Origin: a virus
Direction: 5' to 3' (one strand)
Virus record (IMG/VR): IMGVR_UViG_3300030450_004131
Coordinates: 1 to 64,000 of that record
DNA: 64,000 nt
A program made the position numbers and the translations under genes. The notes under the pieces were generated by a model. The model saw only the letters and a list, made by a program, of their open reading frames with translations, ran no database searches and was not told the DNA's origin. Shown here one piece after another: positions 17,813 through 54,138 of the stretch. The stretch's first letter is position 1. Each line of letters opens with the position of its first letter.

Positions 17813-18043
17813 ATGGAAATTTTAACTAAAATTGGCTCTTGGGCTAATAAACTGACTGAAATCGGAATTTCAGTTGTTGGACTCGGAATAGTACTTGAAG
17901 TATTATTTGGCGGAGTAGGTATTCCTTTTTGGAATGATTTATCTATAGTAGATAATATTATGGGAATATTAGGCAGTCTTAACGCAGAAGGTTTACTTGG
18001 ATTAGTAGGTGCCTTTGTATTATATTATATTATTAAGAAATAA
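17813..18043 (+). CDS. Small membrane protein
   Basis: A 76-aa hydrophobic protein with two probable membrane helices (residues about 19-34 and 58-74) and no signal peptidase site. It has its own promoter-like element about 55 nt upstream and an excellent rho-independent terminator 27 nt downstream, so it is an isolated single-gene unit, unlike nearly all other genes here. No family recognised; holin, antiholin or superinfection-exclusion protein are possible from size and topology alone. Confidence 0.65.
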   Translation: MEILTKIGSWANKLTEIGISVVGLGIVLEVLFGGVGIPFWNDLSIVDNIMGILGSLNAEGLLGLVGAFVLYYIIKK

Positions 18044-18069
18044 GCAAAGATTGCGGAAAAATTGAAGAA

Positions 18070-18095
18070 GGGATGCACTAGCATCCCTTTTTTTT
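18070..18095 (+). terminator. Rho-independent terminator
   Basis: Perfect 7-bp stem GGGATGC/GCATCCC with ACTA loop, followed by eight T residues. It closes the unit ending at 18043 and isolates the secreted-protein cassette that follows. Confidence 0.93.
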
Positions 18096-18105
18096 ATATT
18101 TATAA
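18096..18105 (+). promoter_or_regulatory. ATATTTATAA motif (possible late promoter)
   Basis: Exact copy of the decamer seen at 6191, 23743 and 62070. It begins immediately after the terminator T-run and 24 nt before the ATG at 18130, a good position for a promoter of the T9SS protein. Confidence 0.45.
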
Positions 18106-18129: not shown

Positions 18130-20835
18130 ATGAAAAAATTATTATTATGGTTATGCTTAGCCTTACCTTTTATAGGCATATCCCAAACATATTCTGATAC
18201 TCCAACTATTTTTAGAAGTAAACTTACAAATGCTATAGAATTAGGTACTATACCAGAAGATATAAGCATGTACATTATTTTTGATAAATCAACAATAACA
18301 GCAACTACTGGAAATGTTAACCCAGCTTATTCTGAAATTGCTTTAGATGATGATGATGGGAATGGTATTTGGAGACAAGAAATTTATCTAGATATAACAG
18401 ATCCATCTACTGATTTATATTTTGTTTATAAAATAGTAGATTCTGATGGTACAGAATATTATGAAGACACAGCGGAGTGTTTATTTTTAGGAACTGATTA
18501 TGGTTTTACTGATGGTAGAGCAAGAAAATTAATACCTAGTGAAATCCCAGGAGATGGACAAGTTAAATTCTGTTGGGATACTTGTGAATGGCAATGTCCT
18601 CCTCTTCCTTGTGAAACAGGATTAACAAATCCATCAGCAGACCAAACATGTATAAATGGTGGTCAAGCTATTATTTATTTTTCATGGGAAACAGAATGTG
18701 AGGTACAATCAGTAATTTACTCAAATGCTGAAGGAGCAGGTCCATTTGAATACCAAGTAAACCCAGATGCAGAACTTTTTGGTGTTTATGCAGGGTATGG
18801 TCAAATGCCACCTAATTGGAGTGTAGAACATTATTTACAAGTAAAATTTACTGATGATTCTTTATCTGAAGAAATAGTTTATACTCCTGAACCTTGTATA
18901 GAAGGATGTACTGATCCAAATCAAGAATCTTATAATCCTTGGGCTACTATAGATGATGGTTCTTGTTCAGGGACAACTTGTGATACTGATACACAATATC
19001 AAATTACAATGGAAATTACATTTGATAATTGGCCTAATGAAATTAGTTGGATTATGAATAGTGGTGGAATTATTGGAGAAGTTCCAACTGGAGAATATGA
19101 TTATAATGATATTGGGCAAACTTATACCTACAATTTCTGTATTGACCAAAATGCAGGATTTGAACTTATTGTAAATGATACTTATGGAGATGGTCTAGCT
19201 GGATCAACTTCAGGTGGTAGTTTAGATGGAGAAATAATAATATATGATTGTAATGGTGATATAATTTGGGAAATGGAAGACCCAGATTTCGGATCTACTT
19301 TATACTCAGGTCAACAGTTTGGTATACAATGTGAAGTAACAGAAGAAATTTATGGGTGTACAGACCCAGCTTATCAAGAATATAATCCTGATGCTAATAT
19401 TGATGATGGTTCATGTGAAACATTACACATTATAGGATGTATGGATGAAAATTCAATTAATTATAATCCTGATGCTACATTACAAGAAATAATACCAACA
19501 TGTGATTATAACTTAATCTTAAAAGATGCCGCAGGAGATGGATGGGGTAATTCTTTTATAGGTATTACTCAAAATGATGTATCATTAGGAACTTATACAA
19601 TGGGTCCTGGTTCACCAGAACAAGTATTTCCTTTAACCTTATCTTCATCCCACCCAGTAAAAGTATATTATTTCCAAGTAGGTGGCCCACAATCAACACC
19701 AGAAGAAGTACAATTCCAAACCTGGCATAATTCATTCTTAATAGAAGGATTAGATGGAGAAATATTAATAAGTGAAGGAGAAAACCCATTTGAAAATAAT
19801 GGTCAAGGTGCACTACAAAACTTTGAATCCCCATTCTTTATAACTTATGAAGCAATGCCATATTGTGGAGATGTTTGTATTCCAATAGTTGAAGGATGTA
19901 TGACTGAAGGTTCTTTAAATTATAACCCAGATGCAAATGTAGATGATGGATCTTGTATACCTATTATCTATGGTTGTATGAATGAATTTGCATTCAATTA
20001 TAACCCAGAAGCAACTGTTGATGATGGTTCTTGTGAAGATGAAATAGTAGGATGTATGGATCCAGCAGCATTCAATTATAACCCAGATGCTAATACTCCT
20101 GGAGATTGTATTCCAGTTGTTGAAGGCTGTATGAATGAATTAGCATTTAACTATAATCCTAGTGCTAATGTAGATGATGGTTCTTGTGTACCTGTTATTT
20201 ATGGTTGTACTGACCCTACAGCATTTAATTATAATGTAGATGCTAACACAGATAATGGTTCTTGTGTAGAAGTTGTTTATGGTTGTACAGATCCAGATTC
20301 TGTTAATTATAATCCACTAGCTAATACTGATAATGGAAGTTGTATAACACCAATTGTTGGTTGTACAGATCCAAATTCTTATAATTATGATCCTGACGCT
20401 AATGTATCAGATCCAGATGCTTGTTTATATGATGCAGGTTGTATTACTGGACCTGGTGAACCGTATTGGTTAAATAATAACTGTTACGCTTGGGTAATTG
20501 ATGTAGATGATTATTGCTGTGATAATGATTGGGACCCAGTATGTCAAGAAATGTATAATTACTGTGAAAATGGGTGGCCTGATGGAATTGATATAAATGG
20601 AAGATTCAATAGATTTAGTGGTATAATTGTTTATCCAAACCCATCTGCCAATATAATTAATATAAATTCAAATGGTTTAGACATAACATACTCAGTTTTT
20701 GATGCGACAGGAAGAATCGTAATTGAAAATTCAAATAAAAACCAAATCGATCTATCAAATGTAGAATCAGGAGTTTATTTACTTACTGTTACTTATGAAG
20801 GTCAAACATTTAATAAAAAAATAATAAAACAATAA
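18130..20835 (+). CDS. Secreted Cys-repeat protein with T9SS sorting domain
   Basis: A 901-aa exported protein. Residues 1-19 are a flavobacterial signal peptide (MKKLLLWLCLALPFIGISQ). From about residue 258 to 770 there are ten copies of a repeat close to GCTDPxAxNYNPxANVDDGSC, each with two cysteines; a domain of about 115 residues separates copies 1 and 2, and another (about 465-590) lies within the series. A Cys-rich segment near 775-815 follows. Residues about 830-901 are a type A T9SS C-terminal domain: VYPNPSANIINI, FDATGRIV, and the final SGVYLLTVTYEGQTFNKKII. Such proteins leave the host through the Por system and are often displayed on the outer membrane. A phage copy suggests surface display during infection or host-derived transfer. 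It follows a terminator and heads a set of signal-peptide proteins. Confidence 0.88.
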   Translation: MKKLLLWLCLALPFIGISQTYSDTPTIFRSKLTNAIELGTIPEDISMYIIFDKSTITATTGNVNPAYSEIALDDDDGNGIWRQEIYLDITDPSTDLYFVYKIVDSDGTEYYEDTAECLFLGTDYGFTDGRARKLIPSEIPGDGQVKFCWDTCEWQCPPLPCETGLTNPSADQTCINGGQAIIYFSWETECEVQSVIYSNAEGAGPFEYQVNPDAELFGVYAGYGQMPPNWSVEHYLQVKFTDDSLSEEIVYTPEPCIEGCTDPNQESYNPWATIDDGSCSGTTCDTDTQYQITMEITFDNWPNEISWIMNSGGIIGEVPTGEYDYNDIGQTYTYNFCIDQNAGFELIVNDTYGDGLAGSTSGGSLDGEIIIYDCNGDIIWEMEDPDFGSTLYSGQQFGIQCEVTEEIYGCTDPAYQEYNPDANIDDGSCETLHIIGCMDENSINYNPDATLQEIIPTCDYNLILKDAAGDGWGNSFIGITQNDVSLGTYTMGPGSPEQVFPLTLSSSHPVKVYYFQVGGPQSTPEEVQFQTWHNSFLIEGLDGEILISEGENPFENNGQGALQNFESPFFITYEAMPYCGDVCIPIVEGCMTEGSLNYNPDANVDDGSCIPIIYGCMNEFAFNYNPEATVDDGSCEDEIVGCMDPAAFNYNPDANTPGDCIPVVEGCMNELAFNYNPSANVDDGSCVPVIYGCTDPTAFNYNVDANTDNGSCVEVVYGCTDPDSVNYNPLANTDNGSCITPIVGCTDPNSYNYDPDANVSDPDACLYDAGCITGPGEPYWLNNNCYAWVIDVDDYCCDNDWDPVCQEMYNYCENGWPDGIDINGRFNRFSGIIVYPNPSANIININSNGLDITYSVFDATGRIVIENSNKNQIDLSNVESGVYLLTVTYEGQTFNKKIIKQ

Positions 20836-20836
20836 A

Positions 20837-21910
20837 ATGAAAAAATTATTAATATTACTTTTAGTAATACCGTTTCTAGGTTTTAGTCAAGAAAATAAAG
20901 AACCTTCTAAATTTAAAAAAGATTTAAAAAAGACTTTTAAGTTTTCAACATTCTATGCAGCAGTAAATGGTGGTACTTCTTTATCAGATAGAAATACTTT
21001 TACAGTAAATACTGGTGCTTTAGTATCTAATGTTATTGAAACACCTTTTGATTATTCTTTAGCATTAGGAATTAGAAAAATTGCAAGATTTGATTACGAA
21101 AATAGAGCTAATGTATTTTATGATGGTACAGAATCTTCTTTTTCAGATCAAGCTAATGTTGGAAAAATAAAAGGATTTGAATTTTTATTTGAAGGTGATT
21201 ATAGAAGAATACAAGGAGTAAAATATTTAGATCAACACCATTTTATAAGATATGTAGCTGATGATTGGATTGCTAAGGTAGAATATTTATCTAGTGGTTT
21301 TGTTGGGATAGAATATTTTGAAGCATCACAAAGATATAAAAGGAATATAACAAAAGAATTATCAATTAATGTAGGTTCGGCACAAAGATTATCAGAACCC
21401 TATGGTTATGATCCTTTAGAAGAATGGATGCTTGCTAATGGAAACTTACATTATACTTATTTAGCAATCCAAGAAGGATATAGTGTTAATTTTAACGGCC
21501 CAGGTAATACTGAGTATTTAGACCCTTCTGGAAATGTTGTTGCTAGTAGCACAGCAGTTTGGGAGGAAGTTATTATCCCACAAGTATTAGAAAATTATGT
21601 AGAAAAGAAAAAGAATCAAGCTGATTTAAAATTAGAATATTCTTTAATATTTGGACTAGACTATTACAAATATCAAAAAGATTTTTGGTTTCATGCTTGG
21701 GGTAATATAATGCCTTATCATGTTAAACAAAATAATACTTTTTCTTACCATAATTATAATGGAGGACAATGGATAGATTATTCTGGAGGTGTTATTTTTG
21801 GATATAAGTTAAATAAATCACTAGGACTATTCGCAGAAGGTACTTATAACAAATACTGGAATAGAAATTGGCATAAATTTTCTATGGGTGTAAATTATAT
21901 AATTTTTTAA
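20837..21910 (+). CDS. Secreted, probable outer-membrane protein
   Basis: A 357-aa protein with signal peptide MKKLLILLLVIPFLGFSQ. The mature part is full of alternating aromatic and polar strands (for example FDYSLALGIRKIARF and the ending WHKFSMGVNYIIF, which has the terminal aromatic of an outer-membrane beta-barrel). No named family recognised. It starts 1 nt after the T9SS protein, so the two are coupled. It could be a barrel partner for the T9SS protein or a separate surface protein that alters phage adsorption. Confidence 0.7.
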   Translation: MKKLLILLLVIPFLGFSQENKEPSKFKKDLKKTFKFSTFYAAVNGGTSLSDRNTFTVNTGALVSNVIETPFDYSLALGIRKIARFDYENRANVFYDGTESSFSDQANVGKIKGFEFLFEGDYRRIQGVKYLDQHHFIRYVADDWIAKVEYLSSGFVGIEYFEASQRYKRNITKELSINVGSAQRLSEPYGYDPLEEWMLANGNLHYTYLAIQEGYSVNFNGPGNTEYLDPSGNVVASSTAVWEEVIIPQVLENYVEKKKNQADLKLEYSLIFGLDYYKYQKDFWFHAWGNIMPYHVKQNNTFSYHNYNGGQWIDYSGGVIFGYKLNKSLGLFAEGTYNKYWNRNWHKFSMGVNYIIF

Positions 21911-21916
21911 TAAAAA

Positions 21917-22207
21917 ATGGCAAAAACAAAAGAACTAAGTGAAAATACCAGCTTTACGGTTAGCTTACAAACTTTAGGTGGCATTGCAGCTGCAATAGCA
22001 ACTGTAATTGGAATGTGGTTTGCGCTTCAGGCAGATATAGCTGAAGCAAAAGAACTACCAGTTCCACCTCCACCAGATGTTACAAGAATGGAGTATGATA
22101 TGAAAGATCAATTAATCCGTCAAACAATCATGACAACACAAGAAGATGTAAAGGAGCTAAAGGAAGACATGAAACGTATTGAGGAAAAGATTGATGAATT
22201 AAGATAA
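21917..22207 (+). CDS. Membrane-anchored coiled-coil protein
   Basis: A 96-aa protein with one hydrophobic helix (residues about 20-39), a Pro-rich spacer VPPPPDV and a C-terminal coiled coil (about 60-96) dominated by Glu/Lys heptads. I believe similar proteins are frequent in marine phages, but their function is not established to my knowledge. A role in lysis (spanin-like) or membrane anchoring is possible. It sits between two signal-peptide genes with 6-nt gaps. Confidence 0.65.
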   Translation: MAKTKELSENTSFTVSLQTLGGIAAAIATVIGMWFALQADIAEAKELPVPPPPDVTRMEYDMKDQLIRQTIMTTQEDVKELKEDMKRIEEKIDELR

Positions 22208-22213
22208 TCAATT

Positions 22214-22540
22214 ATGAAAAAAGCAATTTTATTATTACTTTTACTTACGAGCACCTCAATTTTTAGTCAAATAACTGTAACCCATTTTAATGCTGGATGG
22301 AATGGAGCAAATGACGTTAATTGGGTTGAATCATTAACAGATTGTGACGTAACTAAAGTTGATATAGCAAAAGACCCTGCAATCCAAACAAAACATAATG
22401 TAGTAGTTGTTCCAACTATTATAGTTTTTCAAGATGGAGAAGAAGTAAAAAGATTCCAAGCGGATTTAAGTTTTAAAATTGCAGCAACTAAAGAAGACCT
22501 TCAAGATTATATAGATGAACTCATAATGAGTGCATTTTAA
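22214..22540 (+). CDS. Secreted thioredoxin-like protein without CxxC
   Basis: A 108-aa protein with signal peptide MKKAILLLLLLTSTSIFSQ. The mature part is a thioredoxin fold: an ITVTHFNAGW strand, then VVVVPTIIVFQDGEEVKRFQ with the cis-Pro loop. The active-site WCGPC is replaced by a Cys-free GWNGANDV, and the only mature cysteine is in LTDCDV. It is therefore unlikely to be a disulfide oxidoreductase; a binding or chaperone role in the periplasm is more likely. The cytoplasmic thioredoxin at 27498 keeps WCGPC. Confidence 0.72.
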   Translation: MKKAILLLLLLTSTSIFSQITVTHFNAGWNGANDVNWVESLTDCDVTKVDIAKDPAIQTKHNVVVVPTIIVFQDGEEVKRFQADLSFKIAATKEDLQDYIDELIMSAF

Positions 22541-22544
22541 TTTA

Positions 22545-22554
22545 ATATGTATAA
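22545..22554 (+). promoter_or_regulatory. ATATGTATAA promoter-like motif
   Basis: Same decamer as at 17749, 34865 and 41179, 13 nt before the ATG at 22568. It contains an in-frame ATG at 22547 that would otherwise look like a start. No TTG at 17 nt spacing is seen here. Confidence 0.3.
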
Positions 22555-22567
22555 TAAAAATCAAAAT

Positions 22568-22819
22568 ATGAAAAATTTAATTACAGTTTTATTATTAATT
22601 TTTACTTTATCCCTTTCAGCTCAACAAAAACCATCTAAAGAATGTGTAAAAGTTGTAGTTGAAAGATATGACCATGCTAGAGTAAGTGTTACTACAACTA
22701 ATACATGTACTAATGTTATTAAAGTACAAACTTACTTATTAGTAGAATGGAATAAAATTCAAGCTGAGAAAAAAAGAAAATTAAGAAAAAGACGAGCTAA
22801 AAGAGTTAAAAAAGTATAA
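22568..22819 (+). CDS. Small secreted basic protein
   Basis: An 83-aa protein with signal peptide MKNLITVLLLIFTLSLSAQ and a very basic C-terminus (RKLRKRRAKRVKKV). I chose 22568 rather than the in-frame ATG at 22547 because the signal peptide then begins at residue 1 and the earlier ATG lies within a promoter-like motif. Two cysteines (ECVKV, NTCTN) could form a periplasmic disulfide. Family unknown. Confidence 0.65.
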   Translation: MKNLITVLLLIFTLSLSAQQKPSKECVKVVVERYDHARVSVTTTNTCTNVIKVQTYLLVEWNKIQAEKKRKLRKRRAKRVKKV

Positions 22820-22844: not shown

Positions 22845-23099
22845 ATGTTTAATTATTTAAAAAGTAAATGGATGGGATTCAAGAACTTATTTGATGATAA
22901 CAATAATATCAATGAAAAATCCGTAGTTGGATTTATTGCTTTTGCTGTAATGGTGTTATTTGCATTTACTGACTTACTAACAGGATACATAGGTAAAGAT
23001 TTAGTTATTAATGAATTTATTTATGACTCTTTTGTTATAGTTGTACTAGGATGTTTTGGTATAGCTGAAGTTGGTAAAATATTTGGCAATAGAAAATAA
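22845..23099 (+). CDS. Holin-like two-helix membrane protein
   Basis: An 84-aa protein with two membrane segments (about 28-46 and 61-77), charged termini and a short polar linker, a topology typical of class II holins. It is 6 nt upstream of a gene with an L,D-transpeptidase-like Cys/His motif, a plausible cell-wall enzyme, so together they may be the lysis cassette. The holin role is inferred from size, topology and neighbour only. Confidence 0.6.
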   Translation: MFNYLKSKWMGFKNLFDDNNNINEKSVVGFIAFAVMVLFAFTDLLTGYIGKDLVINEFIYDSFVIVVLGCFGIAEVGKIFGNRK

Positions 23100-23105
23100 T
23101 TTATT

Positions 23106-23714
23106 ATGAGTTGTTACACAAGAGAACAAATAGAAGCCACAATGGCTAGTAAAGGTTATAAATACTTTACTGGTGGTGATTATGATGTAAATATAGTAGG
23201 AGTAAGAAACTCTGAAACTAAAGGTAGAGTTACAAATGCATTTGATGATTGTATGACTGTGTCTTACAAAGTAGATGGTGAATGGAATTTTCATTGTTTT
23301 AAATGTACCACAGACCCAGGTTCACATTGGGTAGAAAATATTATGAGAGAAGAGGGTGTTGCTATTCTTAAACCTGGTCAATATAGAGGTTCTCATAAAT
23401 TAGGTTTACATCAAGGTAAATATTTAGCCCTAAGACAACAAAAACCAGTTAAAGTTTATAGAGATAATAACTTAGATAATAAACATGACTTATTAGAAGA
23501 GTCAGTTCAAGAAGGAATTTTTGGTATAAACATACATAGAGCTACAGGCAGATCAGGTGGAAAATCTACAAGAGTAGATAAATGGTCCGCTGGTTGTCAG
23601 GTAATTGCTCATAATGATGATTGGCATATATTTTTAGATATTTGTCAATCTGCAAGAGAAGTTTGGGGTAATTCTTTTACATATACTCTATTAGAAAGTA
23701 AAGATATTGTATAA
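23106..23714 (+). CDS. Putative cell-wall enzyme (YkuD-like), endolysin candidate
   Basis: A 202-aa protein with a C-terminal motif FGINIHRATG...STRVDKWSAGCQVI (residues about 138-168): a His, then 20 residues later an SAGC cysteine, the spacing of the L,D-transpeptidase catalytic motif (H...SHGC). The preceding LVPGQYRG-like segment KPGQYRGSHKLG is also conserved in relatives that I recall from Bacteroidota phages. No signal peptide, consistent with holin-dependent release. It might cut or transfer peptidoglycan crosslinks. Alternatives are a related cysteine peptidase of the NlpC/P60 type. Confidence 0.6.
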   Translation: MSCYTREQIEATMASKGYKYFTGGDYDVNIVGVRNSETKGRVTNAFDDCMTVSYKVDGEWNFHCFKCTTDPGSHWVENIMREEGVAILKPGQYRGSHKLGLHQGKYLALRQQKPVKVYRDNNLDNKHDLLEESVQEGIFGINIHRATGRSGGKSTRVDKWSAGCQVIAHNDDWHIFLDICQSAREVWGNSFTYTLLESKDIV

Positions 23715-24926: not shown

Positions 24927-25424
24927 ATGTTCAACCCTCCTTTATCTAGGAATACAGTAAAAAGACGTCTAAAGAATTATCAAAAGCTAAATTATAATCA
25001 ATTTAGATGGTGGAGATGGTATGAATCAAAAAACAAACCATTACCCTACAAAGCTAGCTTTCGTGATAAAATTTTAAATGGTGATTTTGACCAATCTCCC
25101 TTTATGTTACAAGCTTATTTATGTGAACATATGATGAATGATATATTAGCTGAATGTGATGAGGATTATCAAAAATTCCTAGAAAAGTCTAAATTATTAG
25201 GAGCTAGAAGAAAAAGATTACTAGAAGATTATGAAAAAGATGAATTTAATAAACTAGATACTATTTATAATTTATTTATAAGAAATTTTGATATTACAAG
25301 AGAACAAGTAGAAAAAGAAGCTTTAGAATGCTGTGGAGAATTAATTGATCTTTATTATATTATAGAAGAAAAATATAGAAAAAAACATTATGTCTCTAAA
25401 AGGGGACGACCTAGAAAAATATGA
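24927..25424 (+). CDS. AT-hook-like protein coupled to dpdA
   Basis: A 165-aa helical, charged protein of unknown family. The N-terminus is basic and aromatic (FRWWRWYESKNK near 32-43) and the extreme C-terminus is SKRGRPRKI, containing the RGRP core of an AT-hook that binds the minor groove of AT-rich DNA. Its stop overlaps the dpdA start by 4 nt (ATGA), and it is the first gene after a strong host-like promoter. By position it could be a DNA-binding partner of DpdA, but nothing shows this directly. Other readings are a regulator or nucleoid protein. Confidence 0.6.
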   Translation: MFNPPLSRNTVKRRLKNYQKLNYNQFRWWRWYESKNKPLPYKASFRDKILNGDFDQSPFMLQAYLCEHMMNDILAECDEDYQKFLEKSKLLGARRKRLLEDYEKDEFNKLDTIYNLFIRNFDITREQVEKEALECCGELIDLYYIIEEKYRKKHYVSKRGRPRKI

Positions 25425-26233
25425 AAATAAGTCACGAAGTACCAAAAAGTTTACTAAATGAATCTCTTAATTTTAATGATTATGACTATTGTTTACCCCA
25501 TTTATTAGATGAGGATAAAGAATATAGAGAATTTTTTGAATATTCTAAAAAACAAGGACGTTATATTATTATGGATAATTCGCTTCATGAATTAGGAGAA
25601 GCATACGACCATAAAAGATTATTACATTGGGTTAATAAATTAGAACCAAATGAATTTATTGTGCCTGATGTTTGGATGCAAGGACATATGACGGCAGCTC
25701 AAGCTAAATATTGGAAACAATTTGAATACCCAGAAAACACAAAAATAACAGCTGTAATACAAGGTAAAGATAAAAATGATGCATATTTATGTGCTAATTT
25801 ATTACATAACTTAGGTTATAATAAATTATGTGTATCATATGGAGCAACATGGTACAATGATTTCTTCCCTCACACTAACCCAGATATGGGTAAAGCATTA
25901 GGTAGAATTAGATTTGTACAAGGATTATTAGCTTTAGACCATTTAAAAAATGTTAAATATCATTTATTAGGATGTTCTATACCTCAAGAATTTGGTTGGT
26001 ATGATAATCATCCTCAAATAGAATCAATAGATACTTCTAACCCAATAATGGCTGGAATAGATAGACATACGTATACAGAACAAGGATTAACAATTAAACC
26101 TAAGGCTAATATGAATAATCATTTTAATAAAAAATTAAGTGATAATATAGAAATGAGTATAGCCAAAAATATAGGTAAATTTAGAAAAATAAATGGATTT
26201 AGACCCTATCCAAAACATACTGGGTCATTTTAA
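25421..26233 (+). CDS. dpdA: DpdA-like tRNA-guanine transglycosylase homologue
   Basis: A 270-aa protein with the TGT/DpdA order of motifs. IIMDNSLHELG carries D52 (nucleophile or base-pair of TGT Asp102), EFIVPDVWMQG carries D83, AVIQGKD matches the VQGG strand, YHLLGCS at 180-186 matches YLMGVG, and IESIDTSNPIM carries D204, the TGT Asp280 equivalent. It lacks the Cys3-His zinc site of bacterial TGTs and is shorter (TGT about 375 aa), both as in phage DpdA. In characterised phages DpdA exchanges guanine in DNA for a 7-deazaguanine. The genes for making preQ0 (folE, queD, queE, queC) follow at once, and there is no host-type need for a phage tRNA-Q enzyme, so DNA modification is the best reading. 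Confidence 0.8.
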   Translation: MKISHEVPKSLLNESLNFNDYDYCLPHLLDEDKEYREFFEYSKKQGRYIIMDNSLHELGEAYDHKRLLHWVNKLEPNEFIVPDVWMQGHMTAAQAKYWKQFEYPENTKITAVIQGKDKNDAYLCANLLHNLGYNKLCVSYGATWYNDFFPHTNPDMGKALGRIRFVQGLLALDHLKNVKYHLLGCSIPQEFGWYDNHPQIESIDTSNPIMAGIDRHTYTEQGLTIKPKANMNNHFNKKLSDNIEMSIAKNIGKFRKINGFRPYPKHTGSF

Positions 26234-26245
26234 TATTTTTTAATT

Positions 26246-27040
26246 ATGAATAAACATGCAATTGTTTCGCTAAGTGGAGGAATGGATAGTTCTACACTTT
26301 TACTTAGAGCGATATCTGAGTATGATACAGTTACTGCAATATCATTTGACTATGGTCAAAAGCACAGAGTTGAACTTGAAAGAGCAAAATCATTAATTAC
26401 TTATCTAAATATGGAAGGTCATAAGGTAACCTATGAGCAAATTAAATTAGATGGTTTAGTGGATTTGTTAAATTCTGCTTTAGTAGAAGGGGGAGATGAT
26501 GTCCCAGAAGGACACTATGAACAAGATAATATGAAAGAAACAGTAGTACCTAACAGAAATAAAATGTTTGCGTCTATTACACAGGCGGTTGCTTTATCTA
26601 AAGCAAATGCCACAAAAGAGCAAGTTGATATTTGTTTAGGAATACATGCTGGTGATCATGCAATTTATCCTGATTGTAGACAAGAATTTAGAGACGCTGA
26701 TGATGCAGCATTTAGAATTGGAAATTGGGATGCAGATAGAGTAGGTTATTTTACACCTTATCTTGATACTGATAAATTAGGTATTCTTCAAAATGGAGAA
26801 TATTTATGTGGGGTATTAAATGTTGAATTTGACGAAGTTTATTCTAGAACTAATACTAGTTATAAGCCTTATTCTAGTGGGAACAGTGATTATAAATCTG
26901 CTTCATCTGTTGAAAGAATTGAAGCGTTTATTGCTCTGGGTCGTCCGGATCCTGTTCAATATGAAGATGAAACGGGTCCAGTAGATTGGGAAGTAGCTAG
27001 AGATTCAGTAGCTAAAGTATTAGCTGATTATTCAGCTTAA
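26246..27040 (+). CDS. queC: QueC-like preQ0 synthase lacking the zinc cysteines
   Basis: A 264-aa ATP-pyrophosphatase. The P-loop is SLSGGMDSSTLL (residues 8-19), followed by VPNRNKMFASI near 96-106 and IYPDCRQEFRDA near 139-150, all QueC signatures. The enzyme turns 7-carboxy-7-deazaguanine and ammonia into preQ0. In ordinary QueC the C-terminal part carries four zinc cysteines before VERKEAF; here the same place reads NTSYKPYSSGNSDYKSASS and then VERIEAF, with every cysteine replaced, mostly by Ser. The site is lost although the rest is conserved. There is no extra glutaminase domain, so the product should be preQ0 rather than an amidated derivative. Confidence 0.85.
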   Translation: MNKHAIVSLSGGMDSSTLLLRAISEYDTVTAISFDYGQKHRVELERAKSLITYLNMEGHKVTYEQIKLDGLVDLLNSALVEGGDDVPEGHYEQDNMKETVVPNRNKMFASITQAVALSKANATKEQVDICLGIHAGDHAIYPDCRQEFRDADDAAFRIGNWDADRVGYFTPYLDTDKLGILQNGEYLCGVLNVEFDEVYSRTNTSYKPYSSGNSDYKSASSVERIEAFIALGRPDPVQYEDETGPVDWEVARDSVAKVLADYSA

Positions 27041-27046
27041 TATATT

Positions 27047-27119
27047 TGGCTCGTAGTGTAATTGGCAACACGTCTGGTTTTGGTCCAGAAGAGTCTAGGT
27101 TCGACCCCTAGCGAGCCAA
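27047..27119 (+). tRNA. tRNA-Gln (anticodon TTG)
   Basis: Full cloverleaf readable: acceptor TGGCTCG/CGAGCCA (27047-27053 with 27112-27118), D-arm GTGT/ACAC, anticodon stem TCTGG/CCAGA with loop TTTTGGT giving anticodon TTG at 27080-27082, T-arm CTAGG/CCTAG with TTCGACC loop, discriminator A, no encoded CCA. It reads CAA, a codon used heavily in this AT-rich genome. It lies between queC and a small membrane gene. TTG is not a queuosine-type GUN anticodon, so it is not a substrate for the neighbouring Q pathway. Confidence 0.95.
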
Positions 27120-27132
27120 CAAATAGTAATGT

Positions 27133-27330
27133 ATGAAAAAATTTTTTGAATTTTTATTAATTTGGATAAGTCAAAACCTAGCTATCCCTTTTTGGATTGT
27201 AGGTCATGTACATCTTTCAATTCATAATTTTCATGATTTAGTAGAAATTTTTTCATCTATTGGTATGAATATAGTTGTAGGAATAGGATTTCTTATTGAC
27301 TACAAAAACAGTTTAAAAATAAAAAAATAA
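27133..27330 (+). CDS. Small membrane protein
   Basis: A 65-aa protein with two hydrophobic segments (about 4-24 and 42-58) and a basic C-terminus. It starts 13 nt after the tRNA. No family recognised. Together with the next small gene it forms a pair of membrane proteins between queC and the thioredoxin gene; no link to the modification pathway is evident. Confidence 0.55.
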   Translation: MKKFFEFLLIWISQNLAIPFWIVGHVHLSIHNFHDLVEIFSSIGMNIVVGIGFLIDYKNSLKIKK

Positions 27331-27333
27331 ATT

Positions 27334-27495
27334 ATGTTACAAGATTTACCAGATGCGTATTGGCATCAAAAAATAAGTTTTTTAAAATCAGCTATAAGAA
27401 TAGTTGGATACGGACTTTTACTTTATTCCTTGCCTATTGCAGTAGGAGTTCTTATATTTAGTGAAGCAATTGGTATAATGGAAGAATTAGTTTAA
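27334..27495 (+). CDS. Small membrane protein (53 aa)
   Basis: A 53-aa ORF (MLQDLPDAYWHQK at the N-terminus) with a single long hydrophobic region, about residues 18-47. The ATG is 3 nt after the preceding stop and the TAA is 2 nt before the thioredoxin start, which fits the tight operon spacing of real genes here. I have a weak memory of similar short proteins in T4-like marine phages. Function unknown. Confidence 0.6.
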   Translation: MLQDLPDAYWHQKISFLKSAIRIVGYGLLLYSLPIAVGVLIFSEAIGIMEELV

Positions 27496-27497
27496 TT

Positions 27498-27746
27498 ATG
27501 AATATTATTTTATATTTTACAGCAGCATGGTGTGGTCCTTGTAAAGCACTAGCTCCAAGAATGGAAAAATTAAAAGGACAAATTAACTATAGAAAAATTG
27601 ATATTGATCAAAATCAAGAAATGTCAATGAAATATGGTGTAAGAAGTGTTCCTAGTTTGGTTTTAGTTAATCAAAACGGAGAAGAGATAAGACGTATGGT
27701 TGGTCTCCAATCAGACGATAAAATTTTAAATTTTTATAATGGGTAA
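27498..27746 (+). CDS. Thioredoxin
   Basis: An 82-aa minimal thioredoxin: FTAAWCGPCKALAPRMEKL at residues 7-25 holds the redox WCGPC, and SVPSLVLVNQNGEEIRR near 50-66 holds the cis-Pro and the final strands. It is shorter than host thioredoxin (about 105 aa), lacking the first helix and strand, as phage thioredoxins often do. Likely electron donor for the phage ribonucleotide reductase at 15043-17746. Overlaps queD by 8 nt. Confidence 0.9.
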   Translation: MNIILYFTAAWCGPCKALAPRMEKLKGQINYRKIDIDQNQEMSMKYGVRSVPSLVLVNQNGEEIRRMVGLQSDDKILNFYNG

Positions 27747-28203
27747 ATTTCAATCAAGTAAAGTATTTGACGGATTTAGTACAGTGTTTCGTCAATGGAA
27801 AGCTGAAGGTACACACTGTAGATTTGTACACGGTTATGGAATATCTTTTAAAGTATATTTTGAAGGAGAATTAGATCATAGAAATTGGGTATGGGATTTT
27901 GGAGGAATGAAAAGAGCTAAAACTCTGATAGATGGAAAACAACCTAAAGCATGGATGGACTATATGTTTGATCATACTTTAATTGTAGCAGAAGATGATC
28001 CTGAAGTAAAAGCATTTCAACAAATGGATGCTGTAGGAGTAGCTCAAGTAAGAGTAATGGAAGCTACTGGCGCTGAAAAATTTGCTGAATATATTTATAA
28101 TAAGCTTAATGAATTTGTTAAAACTGAAACTGATAATAGAGTTAGAGTTACAAAAGTAAAATTCATGGAGCATGGTAAAAACGCTGCTTATTATAGCGAA
28201 TAA
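27739..28203 (+). CDS. queD: QueD, 6-carboxy-tetrahydropterin synthase
   Basis: A 154-aa PTPS-family enzyme. GTHCRFVHGYG at residues 24-34 contains the catalytic Cys and the zinc His pair, VWDFGGMK near 51-58 the conserved Asp-Phe-Gly, MFDHTLI near 75-81 the His-Asp site, and FMEHGKNAAYY near 142-152 the C-terminal Glu. It converts dihydroneopterin triphosphate (from FolE at 29150) to 6-carboxy-tetrahydropterin. The family is about 120-150 aa. Second step of preQ0 synthesis. Confidence 0.9.
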   Translation: MGKFQSSKVFDGFSTVFRQWKAEGTHCRFVHGYGISFKVYFEGELDHRNWVWDFGGMKRAKTLIDGKQPKAWMDYMFDHTLIVAEDDPEVKAFQQMDAVGVAQVRVMEATGAEKFAEYIYNKLNEFVKTETDNRVRVTKVKFMEHGKNAAYYSE

Positions 28204-28247
28204 ATAGGTTATTAGTGAATGAAAAACCACTCTAAAAAATTAACAAT

Positions 28248-29030
28248 ATGCACAAACAATTAAAAAGGATAGAAGACTATCAAAAAACACTGGGTGTATT
28301 AGAATTATATACAGCCGTACAATCAGAAGGTAGCAGACAAGGTTACCCAACAATCGTAGTTAGAACATCAGGATGCACACATAGATGCTACTTTGGAGAA
28401 GGTGGATGGTGTGATTCTTGGTATACAAGTATTCACCCAGAAAAAGGTACTTACTGTTTCCAAGATATTATAGACATGTATGATAATAATCCCCATATTA
28501 AAGAAATGATGTTAACTGGGGGTTCTCCAACTATGCATCCAAAATTAGTTAATGAATTAACACACTTTGCACATGAAAGAGATATATTCATTACTATCGA
28601 AACTGAAGGATCTCATTTTTTACCTACCGATTATCCTATTAATTTACTTAGTATTAGTCCCAAGTTTAGTAATTCTGTTCCTGTTATTGGTGCCAAAACA
28701 CCTCAGGGAGCTATTGTAGACGAAAGAATGGTAAAAAAACACAATTCAAAAAGACTAAACATTGAAGCAATATTACAATCAATTGAATATCATGATGATT
28801 ATCACATAAAACCAGTTTTGGATAATAAATTATCTATGGTTAGTGAAGTAGAAGAATTCTTGAAAAAATGTAATATACCAGATCATAAAGTTTGGGCTAT
28901 GCCTGCTGGTGATGATAGAGAATCTTTATTTGAAAGTTATGGTCCTGTTATGAATTTTGTAAGAGATAGAGGTTGGAGATATACAGGACGTTCCCATATT
29001 ATGGCTTTTAATACAGAACGTTGTGTCTAG
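28248..29030 (+). CDS. queE: QueE, 7-carboxy-7-deazaguanine synthase
   Basis: A 260-aa radical SAM enzyme. The cluster site is SGCTHRCYFGEGGWCDSWY near residues 42-60, giving Cys-x3-Cys-x7-Cys, a longer last spacing than the classic x2. MLTGGSP near 84-90 is the SAM-binding GGE-like motif and ITIETEGSHFLP near 106-117 the substrate region. It contracts 6-carboxy-tetrahydropterin to 7-carboxy-7-deazaguanine. QueE enzymes with altered cysteine spacing are known, so the insertion does not argue against activity. Upstream gap of 44 nt. Confidence 0.88.
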   Translation: MHKQLKRIEDYQKTLGVLELYTAVQSEGSRQGYPTIVVRTSGCTHRCYFGEGGWCDSWYTSIHPEKGTYCFQDIIDMYDNNPHIKEMMLTGGSPTMHPKLVNELTHFAHERDIFITIETEGSHFLPTDYPINLLSISPKFSNSVPVIGAKTPQGAIVDERMVKKHNSKRLNIEAILQSIEYHDDYHIKPVLDNKLSMVSEVEEFLKKCNIPDHKVWAMPAGDDRESLFESYGPVMNFVRDRGWRYTGRSHIMAFNTERCV

Positions 29031-29157
29031 AGAAGAAGCACTAGAGATATTAGAGGAAATTGAAGAAAATGTTGGGGTTTGTTGCGCTATTACAATGGAA
29101 CCAGACGAAGTATTAGTATTAATAGATAAATTAAAAAGTTATTTAGAAAATGAGTAG
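29023..29157 (+). CDS. Possible small acidic protein (44 aa)
   Basis: A 44-residue ORF starting with GTG inside the end of queE and ending 8 nt into folE. Sequence is helical and acidic (EEALEILEEIEENVG then a second helix ending KSYLENE). It fills the otherwise empty 119-nt space between queE and folE, and both overlaps fit translational coupling. Too short to recognise; could also be chance. Confidence 0.45.
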   Translation: MSREEALEILEEIEENVGVCCAITMEPDEVLVLIDKLKSYLENE

Positions 29158-29839
29158 AAAAAAACAACACACGGATTTAGAGGTAGTACAAAAAGGATTT
29201 GCAAATGGAGTTTCTCCTAACTTTCCATTAAATGATAAACAAAAGGAGAAAATGATTAAAAAAGCTACTAAAGCTTATGCTAGATTTTTAGAAGCATTAG
29301 AATGTGATTGGCAAAATGATCCTAATTCATCAGATACACCTCATAGAGTAGCTAAAGCTTATGTTAATGATTTATGGGCTGGAAGATATACACAAATGTC
29401 TCCAATTACATCATTTCCATCAGATGGTTATGATGGTATTGTAATTGAACGAAATATTCCATTAACATCAATGTGTTCTCATCATCACCAAACAATTGGA
29501 GGTGTAGTTCATATTGGATATGTTGTTGGTGATAATGGTAGAGTAATTGGATTATCTAAGTTAAATAGAATAGTAGAATTGTTTGGAAGGAGAGGAGCAA
29601 TTCAAGAACAACTTACATCAGCAATTCATAATGCTGTAGATAAAATTTGTGAAAATAATAAAGGTGTTATTGTTTCTATTGTAGGAACACATAATTGTGT
29701 AAGTTGTAGAGGGGTTAAACATCAAGGTGCTGCTATGGTTACAACAAAAGCGTCAGGTGTATTTAGAGATAATGATAATTTAGCAAGAAAGGAATTTTTT
29801 GATTCACTAAAAATAAATAACGGAGGACACAATATATAG
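29150..29839 (+). CDS. folE: GTP cyclohydrolase I
   Basis: A 229-aa FolE. Zinc ligands are in SMCSHHHQTIGG near residues 107-118 and HNCVSCRGVKHQGAAM near 182-197; IGLSKLNRIVELFGRR near 140-155 is the conserved family signature. It converts GTP to dihydroneopterin triphosphate, the first step of the preQ0 pathway, and by standing in the phage operon frees the pathway from host regulation. It ends 2 nt before the phosphoribosyltransferase start. Confidence 0.93.
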   Translation: MSRKKQHTDLEVVQKGFANGVSPNFPLNDKQKEKMIKKATKAYARFLEALECDWQNDPNSSDTPHRVAKAYVNDLWAGRYTQMSPITSFPSDGYDGIVIERNIPLTSMCSHHHQTIGGVVHIGYVVGDNGRVIGLSKLNRIVELFGRRGAIQEQLTSAIHNAVDKICENNKGVIVSIVGTHNCVSCRGVKHQGAAMVTTKASGVFRDNDNLARKEFFDSLKINNGGHNI

Positions 29840-29841
29840 TT

Positions 29842-30321
29842 ATGTTAAAATTAGAAAATAAAATTTATATAAGCTGGGATGATGTAAAAAGAGATGTAGA
29901 AACACTATGTACAAAAATCTTTATGGATTACCCAAATATAGATTCAGTAATGGGGTTACCAAGAGGAGGTTTAATCCCAGCAGTATTAGTTTCCCATGAA
30001 TTAGGATTACCTTGGACGATGCAACCAGGTAGAAATACTTTAGTTATTGATGATATTAATGATACAGGACATACTTTAAATGATGCACCTGGAGTTTATC
30101 ATGCTGTACTTCACCATAAACCAACTTCTAAATTTAAACCAAATTTATATGCTAGAGAAGTAGGAGAAGAATGGTTAGTTTATCCGTGGGAAAGATCAGA
30201 TTCAAAAGCTCTACCAGATTATTTAAAACAGGTTGAGCATCTGAGTGATTCTCATTATATTGGTGGTCTAACAATGCCCAAAGGTGCCAAAACACCTTGG
30301 TGGAAAAAAATGAGTAAATAA
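29842..30321 (+). CDS. Type I phosphoribosyltransferase
   Basis: A 159-aa PRTase. GLPRGGLIPAVLVSHELG near residues 39-56 is the PPi loop and TLVIDDINDTGHTL near 71-84 the PRPP-binding motif with its acidic pair. These fit xanthine/guanine-type PRTases. Downstream of preQ0 genes it may salvage or load purines, or use a 7-deazapurine base; substrate not decidable by eye. Overlaps the next gene by 1 nt. Confidence 0.8.
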   Translation: MLKLENKIYISWDDVKRDVETLCTKIFMDYPNIDSVMGLPRGGLIPAVLVSHELGLPWTMQPGRNTLVIDDINDTGHTLNDAPGVYHAVLHHKPTSKFKPNLYAREVGEEWLVYPWERSDSKALPDYLKQVEHLSDSHYIGGLTMPKGAKTPWWKKMSK

Positions 30322-41214: not shown

Positions 41215-41415
41215 ATGAGTAATAATAAAAAAATGACACTAACTAGTGTTAAAGTAAAGAGCGATTTATTCGACAATTTCAAAATCGAGTGTGTTAGACG
41301 TAAATTTTCTTTTCAAAAACTTGCTGATCGTAGCTTGTTTTTGTATCTTACAGATGAGAATTTCCGTAAACAAATAACAAACCAAATAAATCTCGATTTA
41401 CAAAATGAAGAATAA
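41215..41415 (+). CDS. Possible ribbon-helix-helix regulator
   Basis: A 66-aa protein. MTLTSVKVKSDLFDNFKIEC followed by VRRKFSFQKLADRSLFLYL fits a short beta strand and two helices, the RHH/Arc-MetJ pattern. It is the first gene after a promoter-like element and overlaps the first glycosyltransferase by 11 nt. It might autoregulate the glycan island. No direct evidence of DNA binding. Confidence 0.5.
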   Translation: MSNNKKMTLTSVKVKSDLFDNFKIECVRRKFSFQKLADRSLFLYLTDENFRKQITNQINLDLQNEE

Positions 41416-42847
41416 TAAATTTCCATACTTACCAAAAGAAAAAAGAAAGAAAATATTATTAATTTGTGACGACATCAGAGTACATTCTGGGGTAGCCACA
41501 GTAGCAAAAGAAATAGTAGTCCATACTGCCCATCATTTTAATTGGGTACAAATGGCAGGAGCGATCAAACACCCAGAAAGTGGTAAGAGATTAGATTTAA
41601 CACCTGATACTAATAATTTAGCTGGAATAAATGATTCTTCTGTATTTTTATATCCTGTAGATGGGTATGGTCACCCACAACAAGTTAGACAAATAATTAA
41701 CATAGAAAAGCCTGATGCTATTATGTTATTTACTGATCCAAGGTATTTTACCCATATTTTTAATATGGAACAAGAAATACGAAGAAATATTCCAATTACA
41801 TACTTAAATATTTGGGATGACTACCCAGCTCCAATGTATAATAGAGCATTTTATGAGTCATGTGATTTATTAATGGGAATTTCTAAACAAACTGTAAATA
41901 TTAATAAATTAGTATTAAAAGGACATGAAGGTAATAGAATATTTAAATATCTACCTCATGGTAAAGATGAAAATATATATTATCCTATAGTTAATAAAGA
42001 TAAAGAATATGAAGTATCTATTAATAATCTATTCAAAGGACAAAAACCGAAATTTGTAGCATTTTATAATTCTAGAAATATAAGAAGAAAACAAGTACCA
42101 GATACTATGTTAGCTTTTAGAGCGTTCTTAGATTCTCTACCAGAAGATGAAGCTAAAGATTGTTATTTAATTATAAAATCAGAACCAGTTACAGATCCAG
42201 GTACTGATTTACCTAAAGTTAAAGAATATTTGTTTGATGAAAAATATCCTAATAATATTAAATTTATTTTTGGAAAAATAGAAGAAAAACATCTAAACCA
42301 TTTATATAATATAGCTGATGTTCAGATATTATTAACATCTAATGAAGGTTGGGGGTTAGCAAATACAGAGGCAATATTAGCTGGAACTCCAATTATAGCT
42401 AATGTTACTGGAGGTATGCAAGATCAAATGAGATTTGTAGATGAAAATGGAAAATGGTTTACACCTAGTGCAGATATTCCTTCTAATCATAGAGGAACTT
42501 ATAAAAAACACGGTGAATGGGCGTTCCCAGTTTATCCAACAAGTAGATCGATTCAAGGTTCACCTCCAACACCTTATATCTTTGATGACAGATGTAGATG
42601 GGAAGATGCAGCTGATAGATTAAAAGAATGTTATAAGTTAGGAAGAAAAGAATTAAAGAGAAGAGGTTTAAAAGGAAGAGAATGGGCTATTAGTAATGAA
42701 GCTGGTTTTACTTCTGAACAACAAGGTAATAAAGTAATGGAGGTATTTAATGAATTATTTGATACTTGGAAGCCAAGAGAAAAATATGAATTAGTTAATA
42801 CCAATGAATATAAAGGTAAATTTTTAAATCATAAAATAATATATTAA
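41405..42847 (+). CDS. GT4-family glycosyltransferase
   Basis: A 480-aa GT-B enzyme. LLICDDIRVHSGVATVAKEI near residues 16-35 is the N-domain glycine-loop region, and SNEGWGLANTEAILAGTPII near 311-330 is the EX7E nucleotide-sugar motif of GT4. It probably retains anomeric configuration while adding a sugar from a nucleotide donor. It overlaps its neighbour by 1 nt and heads the glycan island. Acceptor unknown. Confidence 0.85.
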   Translation: MKNNKFPYLPKEKRKKILLICDDIRVHSGVATVAKEIVVHTAHHFNWVQMAGAIKHPESGKRLDLTPDTNNLAGINDSSVFLYPVDGYGHPQQVRQIINIEKPDAIMLFTDPRYFTHIFNMEQEIRRNIPITYLNIWDDYPAPMYNRAFYESCDLLMGISKQTVNINKLVLKGHEGNRIFKYLPHGKDENIYYPIVNKDKEYEVSINNLFKGQKPKFVAFYNSRNIRRKQVPDTMLAFRAFLDSLPEDEAKDCYLIIKSEPVTDPGTDLPKVKEYLFDEKYPNNIKFIFGKIEEKHLNHLYNIADVQILLTSNEGWGLANTEAILAGTPIIANVTGGMQDQMRFVDENGKWFTPSADIPSNHRGTYKKHGEWAFPVYPTSRSIQGSPPTPYIFDDRCRWEDAADRLKECYKLGRKELKRRGLKGREWAISNEAGFTSEQQGNKVMEVFNELFDTWKPREKYELVNTNEYKGKFLNHKIIY

Positions 42848-44142
42848 TGAGTAAACCAAGATTTGTAATATCATGCCCTTTTGATACCTACTCAGGTTAT
42901 GGGGCTAGAGCAAGAGATGTAGTTAAAGCTATTATTGAATTAGATAAATATAAGGTTGAATTATTATCTCAAAGATGGGGAGAAACATCTTGGGGATTTT
43001 GTAAAGATCATCCTGAATGGAAATTTTTGTATAAACATTTAGCAACCCATGAGTGGCAAAAAGTACAACCTGATATTTGGATGCAAATTACAATCCCAAA
43101 TGAATTCCAACCAGTAGGAAAATATAATATAGGATTAACTGCAGGGATTGAAGCTACGGCTTGTAAAGCAGAATGGATTGAAGGATTAAATAGAATGGAT
43201 ATGAATTGGGTATCATCTAATTTCTCAAAAAGAACACTCGAATCTATGGTATTTGATCAAAAAGATCAACAATCCCAACAAATAATTGGACAAGTTAAAC
43301 TCCAAAAACCAATAGAAGTTTTATTTGAAGGTGTTGATATAACTAAATACAAAACAATCCCATCATCAGATATTAAAAATATAACATTAAAAAATTTAAA
43401 AGAATCATTTTGTTATTTATTTGTTGGTCATTGGATGCAAGGTGAAGTAGGTCATGATAGAAAAAATGTTGGAATATTAGTTAAAAATTTCTACGAAGCG
43501 TTTAAAGACAAACGAGGACCAAAACCAGCATTAATATTAAAATGTTCAACTGGGGTAGCTTCATATATGAGTAGAGATGCTATATTAGATAAAATTAAAC
43601 AAATTAGACAAGGACTTAAATCTTCAAATTTACCTAATATTTATTTACTTAATGGTGAATTTAATGATTCTGAGATGAATGAATTATATAATCATCCTAA
43701 AGTTAAAGCTATGGTTAGTTTAACTAAAGGAGAAGGTTTTGGAAGGCCTTTATTAGAATTTAGTATGACTGGAAAACCAATAATAGCATCAGGTTGGTCG
43801 GGACATATTGATTTTCTTAACCCAGAATTTGTTTCTTTACTTCCTGGTACATTAGAAAATGTTCATCCTAGTGCTGCTAATGACTGGTTAGTAAAAGAAG
43901 CTAAGTGGTTTCAAGTAAGTTATAGTCATTCTTTATCGATATTTAAAGATATGTTTAAAAATTATAAAAAATATATAGTTAAAGGTAAAAAACAAAAATA
44001 TTATGCTAAATCTAATTTTAGTTGGGAAAAGATGAAAGAATTTATTAATACAAAACTTGATGTAAATGTTCCTCAATTTGCCCAACAAGTAGAATTAAAA
44101 TTACCTGAACTAAATTTACCTAATTTAAAAAAAGTTAAATAA
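42847..44142 (+). CDS. GT4-family glycosyltransferase
   Basis: A 431-aa GT-B enzyme. CPFDTYSGYGARARDVVKAI near residues 10-29 and TKGEGFGRPLLEFSMTGKPI near 295-314 (EX7E) define GT4. It resembles the preceding enzyme in size and layout but not closely in sequence, so the two probably add different sugars. 1-nt overlaps on both sides. Confidence 0.85.
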   Translation: MSKPRFVISCPFDTYSGYGARARDVVKAIIELDKYKVELLSQRWGETSWGFCKDHPEWKFLYKHLATHEWQKVQPDIWMQITIPNEFQPVGKYNIGLTAGIEATACKAEWIEGLNRMDMNWVSSNFSKRTLESMVFDQKDQQSQQIIGQVKLQKPIEVLFEGVDITKYKTIPSSDIKNITLKNLKESFCYLFVGHWMQGEVGHDRKNVGILVKNFYEAFKDKRGPKPALILKCSTGVASYMSRDAILDKIKQIRQGLKSSNLPNIYLLNGEFNDSEMNELYNHPKVKAMVSLTKGEGFGRPLLEFSMTGKPIIASGWSGHIDFLNPEFVSLLPGTLENVHPSAANDWLVKEAKWFQVSYSHSLSIFKDMFKNYKKYIVKGKKQKYYAKSNFSWEKMKEFINTKLDVNVPQFAQQVELKLPELNLPNLKKVK

Positions 44143-44585
44143 TGAAATTTGATGAATTAAGAGAATGTTCTCGTTGTGGATCTGATGCTTGTTACAGACA
44201 AGAAATAAGTAAAGATGTATCTATTGAATTATGTTATGGATGTGGTTTCCAATCTAATTCAATAATGAAAAAAGGAAGTAAGTTTTTTAATGAACAATGG
44301 GAATTATTACCTGAACTTTATAAAGTATTAATGGATGAAGAAGAAGATAATGGTAAAATTTGGATGCCATCTCACATTAATGTTAAAGAAAAAGGAATGA
44401 TATTTGCTACTGGAAATGGAAGAAGTAATTGGAGATGGGGAGCTGTAAAATCAATTCCGGTATCTAAGGAAGAAAAAGAAAAATACAAAGGAGAAGAATA
44501 CAAATCAGATATGAGTACTGTAAAATATTTTATGGAAAGAGATTTTATGGAAGCTTTATCTTATATAGGAATAATACCAGAATAA
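44142..44585 (+). CDS. Zinc-ribbon protein
   Basis: A 147-aa protein with CSRCGSDACYRQ near 9-20 and ELCYGCGFQSN near 29-39, two CxxC knuckles of a zinc ribbon. The C-terminal part has WRWGAVKSIPVSKEEKEKY. I recall similar proteins in T4-like marine phages embedded among glycosyltransferases. It may be regulatory or structural; not an enzyme by motif. Confidence 0.65.
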   Translation: MKFDELRECSRCGSDACYRQEISKDVSIELCYGCGFQSNSIMKKGSKFFNEQWELLPELYKVLMDEEEDNGKIWMPSHINVKEKGMIFATGNGRSNWRWGAVKSIPVSKEEKEKYKGEEYKSDMSTVKYFMERDFMEALSYIGIIPE

Positions 44586-44586
44586 T

Positions 44587-46109: not shown

Positions 46110-46110
46110 G

Positions 46111-46251
46111 ATGGCAGATAATCAAAATAATGGTAATACTCAACTTAATACTGATAGAAATAATTTAAATCAAAGAGTTAGTAAACTAGCGTATTTAGGT
46201 AAAAGTAGTAAAGTAAAATGGTCTGATAGAAGACGCTTTAGAAATATATAA
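46111..46251 (+). CDS. Small Asn-rich basic protein (46 aa)
   Basis: A 46-aa ORF: Asn/Gln-rich N-terminus, then RVSKLAYLGKSSKVKWSDRR. It starts 1 nt after the GT2 stop and ends exactly where the next ATG begins, the packing of a real gene. No family recognised; may be structural or RNA/DNA binding. Confidence 0.55.
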   Translation: MADNQNNGNTQLNTDRNNLNQRVSKLAYLGKSSKVKWSDRRRFRNI

Positions 46252-54136: not shown

Positions 54137-54138
54137 AT

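Follow-up and report, generated by a model that had tools for sequence, protein, structure and literature searches.

A cysteine-rich T9SS cargo and three accompanying envelope genes in uncultured flavobacterial phages may alter the surface of infected cells

A predicted T9SS cargo in an immuto-like phage

The window, by which we mean the whole stretch of DNA analysed here, comprises 64,000 of the 64,388 bases of a linear IMG/VR virus record. On its + strand, an open reading frame with an ATG start (18130-20835) encodes a 901-aa protein which, by profile matches, is a type A cargo of the type IX secretion system (T9SS). The N-terminus reads by eye as a signal peptide (MKKLLLWLCLALPFIGIS/Q) with a clear n-h-c pattern that ends S/Q, and this signal is kept across the family. 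It is followed by a variable N-terminal tip (residues ~20-155), a conserved beta-sandwich core (~156-588), a repeat stalk whose repeats lie within residues 259-767, a CCxxxWDxxC segment (~770-815) and a C-terminal T9SS sorting domain (CTD, 834-901). All ten Cys repeats reported in a preliminary description of this DNA could be located, with starts at residues 259, 409, 436, 589, 615, 641, 666, 692, 718 and 744; they follow the pattern GC[MT]-x-NYNP-x-A-x-DDGSC, and the protein contains 41 cysteines.

The type A sorting domain claimed in the same description passed the profile tests. The CTD scores 56.2 bits against TIGR04183 (cut-off 23), with all 72 model positions covered, and 53.4 bits against PF18962 (cut-off 27), about twice the curated cut-offs, and it resembles the C-terminal portions of the solved proteins 8glk_D and 7pzj_A. 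A T9SS CTD was found in 18 of 21 members of the cargo family (E ≤0.01) and, given this conservation, chance is ruled out at the sequence level as the source of the match. Each phage contig carries one T9SS CTD, with the exception of a 245-kb contig that has two. A PHROG search with the cargo returned zero matches, phage tail and fibre (structural) families included, which makes the repeats unlike any known phage tail family; the refuting outcome named in the preliminary description, in which they would match such a family only, did not arise. Export through the host T9SS, also proposed before, is well supported by the sequence and in our judgement very likely.

The window genome encodes SSB, a UvsX-like recombinase, an exonuclease, DnaB, DNA polymerase, GroEL and glycosyltransferases, together with ribonucleotide reductase genes. 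Its gene order closely parallels that of Flavobacterium phage immuto, the nearest cultured relative, which infects Flavobacterium sp. LMO8; identity to immuto is 73% for NrdB, 69% for NrdA, 61% for the UvsX-like protein and 63-70% for QueC/D/E and FolE. Further, a 170-kb contig bearing the same module as the window (see below) encodes a T4-type Gp23 capsid for which immuto is the nearest flavobacterial isolate (65% identity over the aligned parts). By this capsid relation and the shared gene order, the window is a fragment of an immuto-like phage of the T4 type that has not been cultured. Its host is likely a flavobacterium, in agreement with the Bacteroidota host deduced before. Elsewhere in the window, the 7-deazaguanine genes QueC, QueD, QueE and FolE and a DpdA-like gene (by immuto match) lie at 25421-30321 and suggest modified phage DNA. 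A cluster of phage genes for building glycans, which perhaps serves surface modification too, takes up ~18 kb at 41405-59379; it comprises glycosyltransferases, aminotransferases and sugar epimerases along with a Nol-like carbamoyltransferase.

Three partner genes accompany the cargo

Searching viral contigs with the cargo gave 24 loci, and clustering of the neighbouring genes revealed three that accompany it in shuffled order, namely a barrel of 340-360 aa, a protein of ~94 aa with one transmembrane segment (TM) and a thioredoxin-like protein of ~113 aa. When an alignment of the barrel was used instead, at least 491 viral stretches were confirmed, of which 80 were kept. Where at least 5 kb flanked the barrel on either side, all four genes were present in 32 of 32 loci, a count that overstates independence because the 80 barrel loci were chosen by barrel similarity and include near-duplicates. 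The four genes of the window are separated by 1-6 bp, and an intrinsic terminator-like hairpin (18064-18100, + strand; 13-bp stem, T tract, z -7.0) lies just upstream of the cargo. Given this spacing and the hairpin, the module probably begins its own transcription unit and the four genes probably form one unit; that they also work as one envelope module seems to us reasonably likely. A T4-type late promoter (TATAAATA) was found upstream of 2 of 51 cargos and 0 of 78 barrels, not above chance (the shuffled rate is 2.5%).

The gene directly after the cargo (20837-21910, + strand) encodes a predicted exported outer-membrane beta-barrel of 357 aa, with ~12 strands and a C-terminal Phe, that belongs to a phage-specific family. 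The structure model has ~12 strands (pLDDT 67), its Foldseek matches are generic ones to outer-membrane porins and autotransporter barrels, and the C-terminal Phe recurs in 62 of 84 distinct members, all of which fits an outer-membrane barrel. We considered and rejected a relationship to the T9SS components PorV or PorP/SprF, since there was no Pfam or NCBIfam match and the Foldseek matches were generic. That a phage barrel sits directly beside a T9SS cargo does raise the prospect that one or the other saturates or blocks the host T9SS, halting gliding and the secretion of receptor adhesins, and in Cellulophaga the phage receptors may include such T9SS cargo as SprB and RemA (PMC13288928). However, simple jamming needs neither a variable tip nor a changing stalk length, and the barrel matches no T9SS component in Pfam or NCBIfam, so we consider such a takeover improbable.

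The next gene (21917-22207, + strand) encodes a 96-aa protein with a short N-terminal segment, a single TM and a charged, heptad-rich C-terminal tail. A single TM is predicted in 73 of 73 members of this family; the tail reads from its sequence as coiled-coil-like, and no outer-membrane lipoprotein partner was identified. The fourth gene (22214-22540, + strand) encodes a 108-aa protein with a signal peptide, which we call a pseudo-thioredoxin because the WCxxC of thioredoxins is replaced by WNGAN. It matches PF00085 over its C-terminal half only (24.8 bits, cut-off 23.5) and thioredoxins in the PDB with an E value of 5e-6. The active site reads [WF]NxxN in 69 of 75 members and CxxC in none of the 75, the cis-Pro motif is kept in 73 of 75, and a signal sequence was seen in those members that were read by eye. 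A true thioredoxin (WCGPC) is encoded in the same genome at 27498-27746. The replacement of both active-site cysteines by conserved Asn, in an exported phage protein whose neighbouring cargo carries 22-73 cysteines, is a puzzle.

Several smaller genes surround the module, all on the + strand. A two-TM protein of 76 aa lies between nrdA and the module (17813-18043), and a small basic protein of 90 aa with a signal peptide, conserved only in close relatives, begins 6 bp downstream of the pseudo-thioredoxin gene (22547-22819). Then come a two-TM holin-like protein of 84 aa (22845-23099), homologous to immuto_79, which in immuto adjoins the endolysin and an annotated holin, and a putative endolysin of 202 aa (23106-23714; phrog_3000 / phrog_33083) that is also found in Bacteroides phages. 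Of the 32 loci, 20 have the holin-like gene close to the module and 8 the putative endolysin. Together with the position of the module on the structural strand in a second, 63-kb lineage of phages (see below), these neighbours are compatible with late expression. Similar-sized genes near a homologous endolysin in Bacteroides phage DAC16 were examined as a candidate for the same module and rejected, their translations being unrelated.

The same neighbours could point to a role in lysis, in which the barrel, the coiled-coil TM protein and the cargo would disrupt or bridge the envelope; the single-TM, coiled-coil topology of the TM protein does resemble that of inner-membrane spanins. Yet cultured relatives lyse their hosts without the barrel (immuto) or without a T9SS tail (elemo, Panino and phi38:1), the immuto endolysin and holin lie ~26 kb from its export cassette, and lysis has no need of a T9SS cargo that varies between 600 and 1325 aa. 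Because related cultured phages lack the module, lysis is disfavoured as its main role, and we rate an aid to lysis, like a takeover of secretion, as improbable.

In the 63-kb lineage and several others the module adjoins structural or decoration-like genes, as it might if the cargo or the barrel became part of the virion, perhaps forming a fibre or decorating the head. We think this very unlikely: the N-terminal signal sequences of cargo, barrel and pseudo-thioredoxin, as judged by eye, would direct these proteins away from particle assembly in the cytoplasm, the T9SS tail is kept in nearly all cargos, and there is no PHROG structural match. Tandem MATLTPTLTLTS-type proteins of 120-140 aa, possibly decoration proteins, adjoin the module in L010 (12390-13143), L026 (13397-14668) and other loci.

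The module is phage-borne and moves horizontally

The barrel was detected in one of 395 sampled Bacteroidota genomes, and in that one it belongs to a phage contig binned into a metagenome-assembled genome (MAG); the other 394 have no relative of it. The full architecture of the cargo core was likewise not found in these 394 genomes, four of which gave short, weak domain matches alone. Acquisition of the cargo from a host, suggested in the preliminary description, is only partly borne out: the tail and the repeats are host-like, but neither the full core architecture nor the barrel was found in these 394 genomes. As to related phages, the gene recurs at the 24 viral-contig loci given above, whereas INPHARED contains no match for cargo or barrel. 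A Sphingobacteriales MAG (G019; contigs C28, C58 and C79) includes a module-bearing phage contig (L026, JAAXIF010000025.1) and two other contigs with Gp23, which shows that the bin is mixed with phage.

The same four genes also occur on several contigs of ~63-67 kb without Gp23, which form a second module-bearing lineage. In an annotated contig of 62,989 bp from this group the portal is phrog_6547, and the capsid shares 40-46% identity with its counterparts in Flavobacterium elemo phages, in an environmental podovirus and in Maribacter phage Panino; both capsid and portal are of the elemo / Panino / phi38:1 type. No T9SS tail was found in cultured elemo, Panino and phi38:1 or in one environmental genome, which marks the module as accessory. 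Its presence both in Gp23-encoding, T4-like contigs and in the 63-kb lineage shows that it has crossed between two unrelated phage lineages and moves horizontally.

Cargos differ in tip, repeat number and tail

We compared 66 distinct long cargos. They have 5 to 24 repeats and 22 to 73 cysteines, and in sister pairs the repeat counts are 11/9, 20/18 and 19/24, a difference of 2-5. The N-terminal region is swapped between phages: the window cargo is of the same type as that of L020, an SWVN-type beta domain forms the tip of most other cargos, and eight carry a WxGDGyCDDG segment at the N-terminus. For the L086 and L102 cargos, identity is 45-69% over the first 180 columns as against 82-98% thereafter. 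From these features the cargo looks like a surface stalk bearing a variable tip. The structure model of the tip is poor (pLDDT <40), so that no ligand can be named from it. Foldseek with the first 589 residues returned generic fibronectin-like matches of low TM-score from a model of low pTM (0.31), and on these grounds we make no claim as to a ligand.

Most cargos (55) end in a YPNP-type tail, 9 have a shorter DLLGRP/DLLGKP-type tail and 2 are truncated. The shorter tail (VTDLLGRP...LLYIYSDGSV.KQ..KK) is found in the cargos of L012, L013, L016, L101, L103, L108, L109, L118 and L120, and our own CTD profile did not match it in these 9 of 66. It is possibly a reduced T9SS signal and, since the profile misses it, some of these cargos may use a different anchor. 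Among individual loci, the 245-kb contig IMGVR_UViG_3300030098_004828 holds two copies of the module (L086 and L102) with differing cargo tips, perhaps because the phage carries the module twice or because sequences were joined in assembly. The cargo of L018 (8586-11547) consists of two adjacent open reading frames, a broken copy or an assembly error. A second very large protein (1538-1560 aa) with the same Cys repeats lies near the module in L012 (858-5540) and L016 (1240-5856), and the L012 copy had no Pfam or PHROG match.

A parallel cassette in Flavobacterium phage immuto

Between nrdA and queC, immuto (MW353175) encodes a small one-TM protein together with several exported ones, namely a nuclease, the C-type lectin immuto_13 and two more. 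In one product, immuto_15, a cohesin domain (36.7 bits against a cut-off of 24.1) is combined with a T9SS tail (PF18962, 34.6 bits, cut-off 27); the GenBank label of this protein, 'cohesin domain-containing protein', says nothing of the tail. Relatives of immuto_15 were found in 27 viral loci. The C-type lectin is the most variable part of the cassette (34-72% identity among relatives, immuto itself excluded), and in a closer group of relatives its neighbours mostly show 65-88% identity. By eye, the cassette also appears to contain dockerin-like segments and a CsgG-like protein, neither of which Pfam confirmed. The location after nrdA, the exported proteins, the single T9SS type A tail, the small one-TM protein and the variable tip protein are all shared with the module of the window. 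In contrast, the cassette pairs a cohesin-T9SS anchor with a C-type lectin, and neither a barrel nor a pseudo-thioredoxin homologue was found in immuto. By this comparison of genes, two unrelated T9SS display cassettes fill one genomic slot in related phages.

The lectin tip also bears on whether the stalk might serve in adhesion or aggregation, by attaching infected cells, or debris of their outer membranes, to other cells, polysaccharide or particles, in which case progeny would meet new hosts better or the host would stay on its particle. The cargo core resembles beta-sandwich, fibronectin-like adhesin modules, the immuto cassette perhaps includes the CsgG-like protein (a reading by eye with no Pfam match), and curli genes are reported from a T4-like marine Bacteroidetes virus (PMC7198788). 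However, no ligand was identified, and the core gave only generic Foldseek matches with low TM-scores. We hold adhesion to be unlikely, if less so than a role in secretion takeover or lysis.

Discussion

Bacteroidota T9SS type A cargos share with the window cargo a Sec signal (in the latter read by eye), a C-terminal sorting domain scoring above the cut-offs and Cys-rich repeats; the window cargo differs in being encoded by a phage and tied to three partner genes, with a barrel that is phage-specific in the sampled genomes and a core absent from 394 of them. The preliminary description called such cargo unusual in a phage, which is true of cultured phages but not of this uncultured group, where it is common, nor of the literature. 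A 2019 study of BACON repeats reported T9SS sorting domains in crAss-like contigs (PMC6949934); those proteins also belong to Bacteroidota phages and lie near head genes, whereas their BACON repeats and domains are unrelated to those of our cargo. A 2020 paper described T4-like viruses of marine Bacteroidetes that encode surface adhesion proteins and carry curli genes (PMC7198788). In the same year, Cryophage was found to carry three variable T9SS-tagged genes, for which superinfection exclusion was suggested (Bellas et al. 2020, PMC7468147). These cargos resemble ours in being phage-encoded, in their T9SS type A domains and in varying among phage variants, and differ in their identity (an endoglucanase, a GH39 and a PA14 protein) and in that no conserved partner module was found described for them. 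T9SS cargo in phages was thus already known; our search, which covered an open library of papers, yielded no description of the four-gene module or of the immuto T9SS tail. The module, its horizontal spread and the parallel immuto cassette were all absent from the preliminary description.

Our preferred reading, to which we give a probability of roughly 0.4, is that the cargo forms the outermost part of a conserved module of flavobacterial phages, one that moves horizontally and changes the cell surface against competing phages. We infer that the four proteins occupy the inner membrane, the periplasm, the outer membrane and the surface. All four would be made and exported during infection, the one-TM protein being anchored in the inner membrane, the pseudo-thioredoxin located in the periplasm and the barrel placed in the outer membrane. 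The host type IX machine would carry the cargo to the surface through its type A CTD, where it would form a projecting stalk, rich in disulfides and variable in length, whose tip can be swapped; barrel and pseudo-thioredoxin would probably be dedicated partners that help with its folding, passage or anchoring. Competing phages would then fail to adsorb to an infected cell altered in this way, or to inject.

Taken together, the tip variation, the lectin design of the parallel cassette and the horizontal spread and accessory nature of the module point to some interaction on the infected cell's surface. We would tentatively place the benefit in superinfection exclusion or receptor masking, ahead of adhesion in second place, interference with the T9SS and lysis in third and association with the virion last. 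Superinfection-exclusion proteins of phages, such as Llp of T5, are envelope proteins made during infection and could block receptors; unlike the cargo, proteins of this type are small lipoproteins or inner-membrane proteins, and we know of none that uses the T9SS. On a wider scale, it is plausible, if somewhat less likely than not, that the four genes are a phage system of a new kind, in which a mobile trans-envelope machine with parts in inner membrane, periplasm and outer membrane, common to unrelated flavobacterial phages, works with the host T9SS and erects a stalk with a swappable tip on infected cells, and that relatives have in the same slot an independent cohesin-lectin design.

Bacteroidota are major marine degraders of algal matter and the T9SS is unique to them. 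How phages handle the cell surface of these bacteria is little understood, and the module, present in hundreds of uncultured ocean viral contigs, some of them T4-like and of near-genome length, bears on that gap. The immuto cassette offers a cultured test case in which to ask whether a phage redecorates the infected cell through the T9SS of its host.
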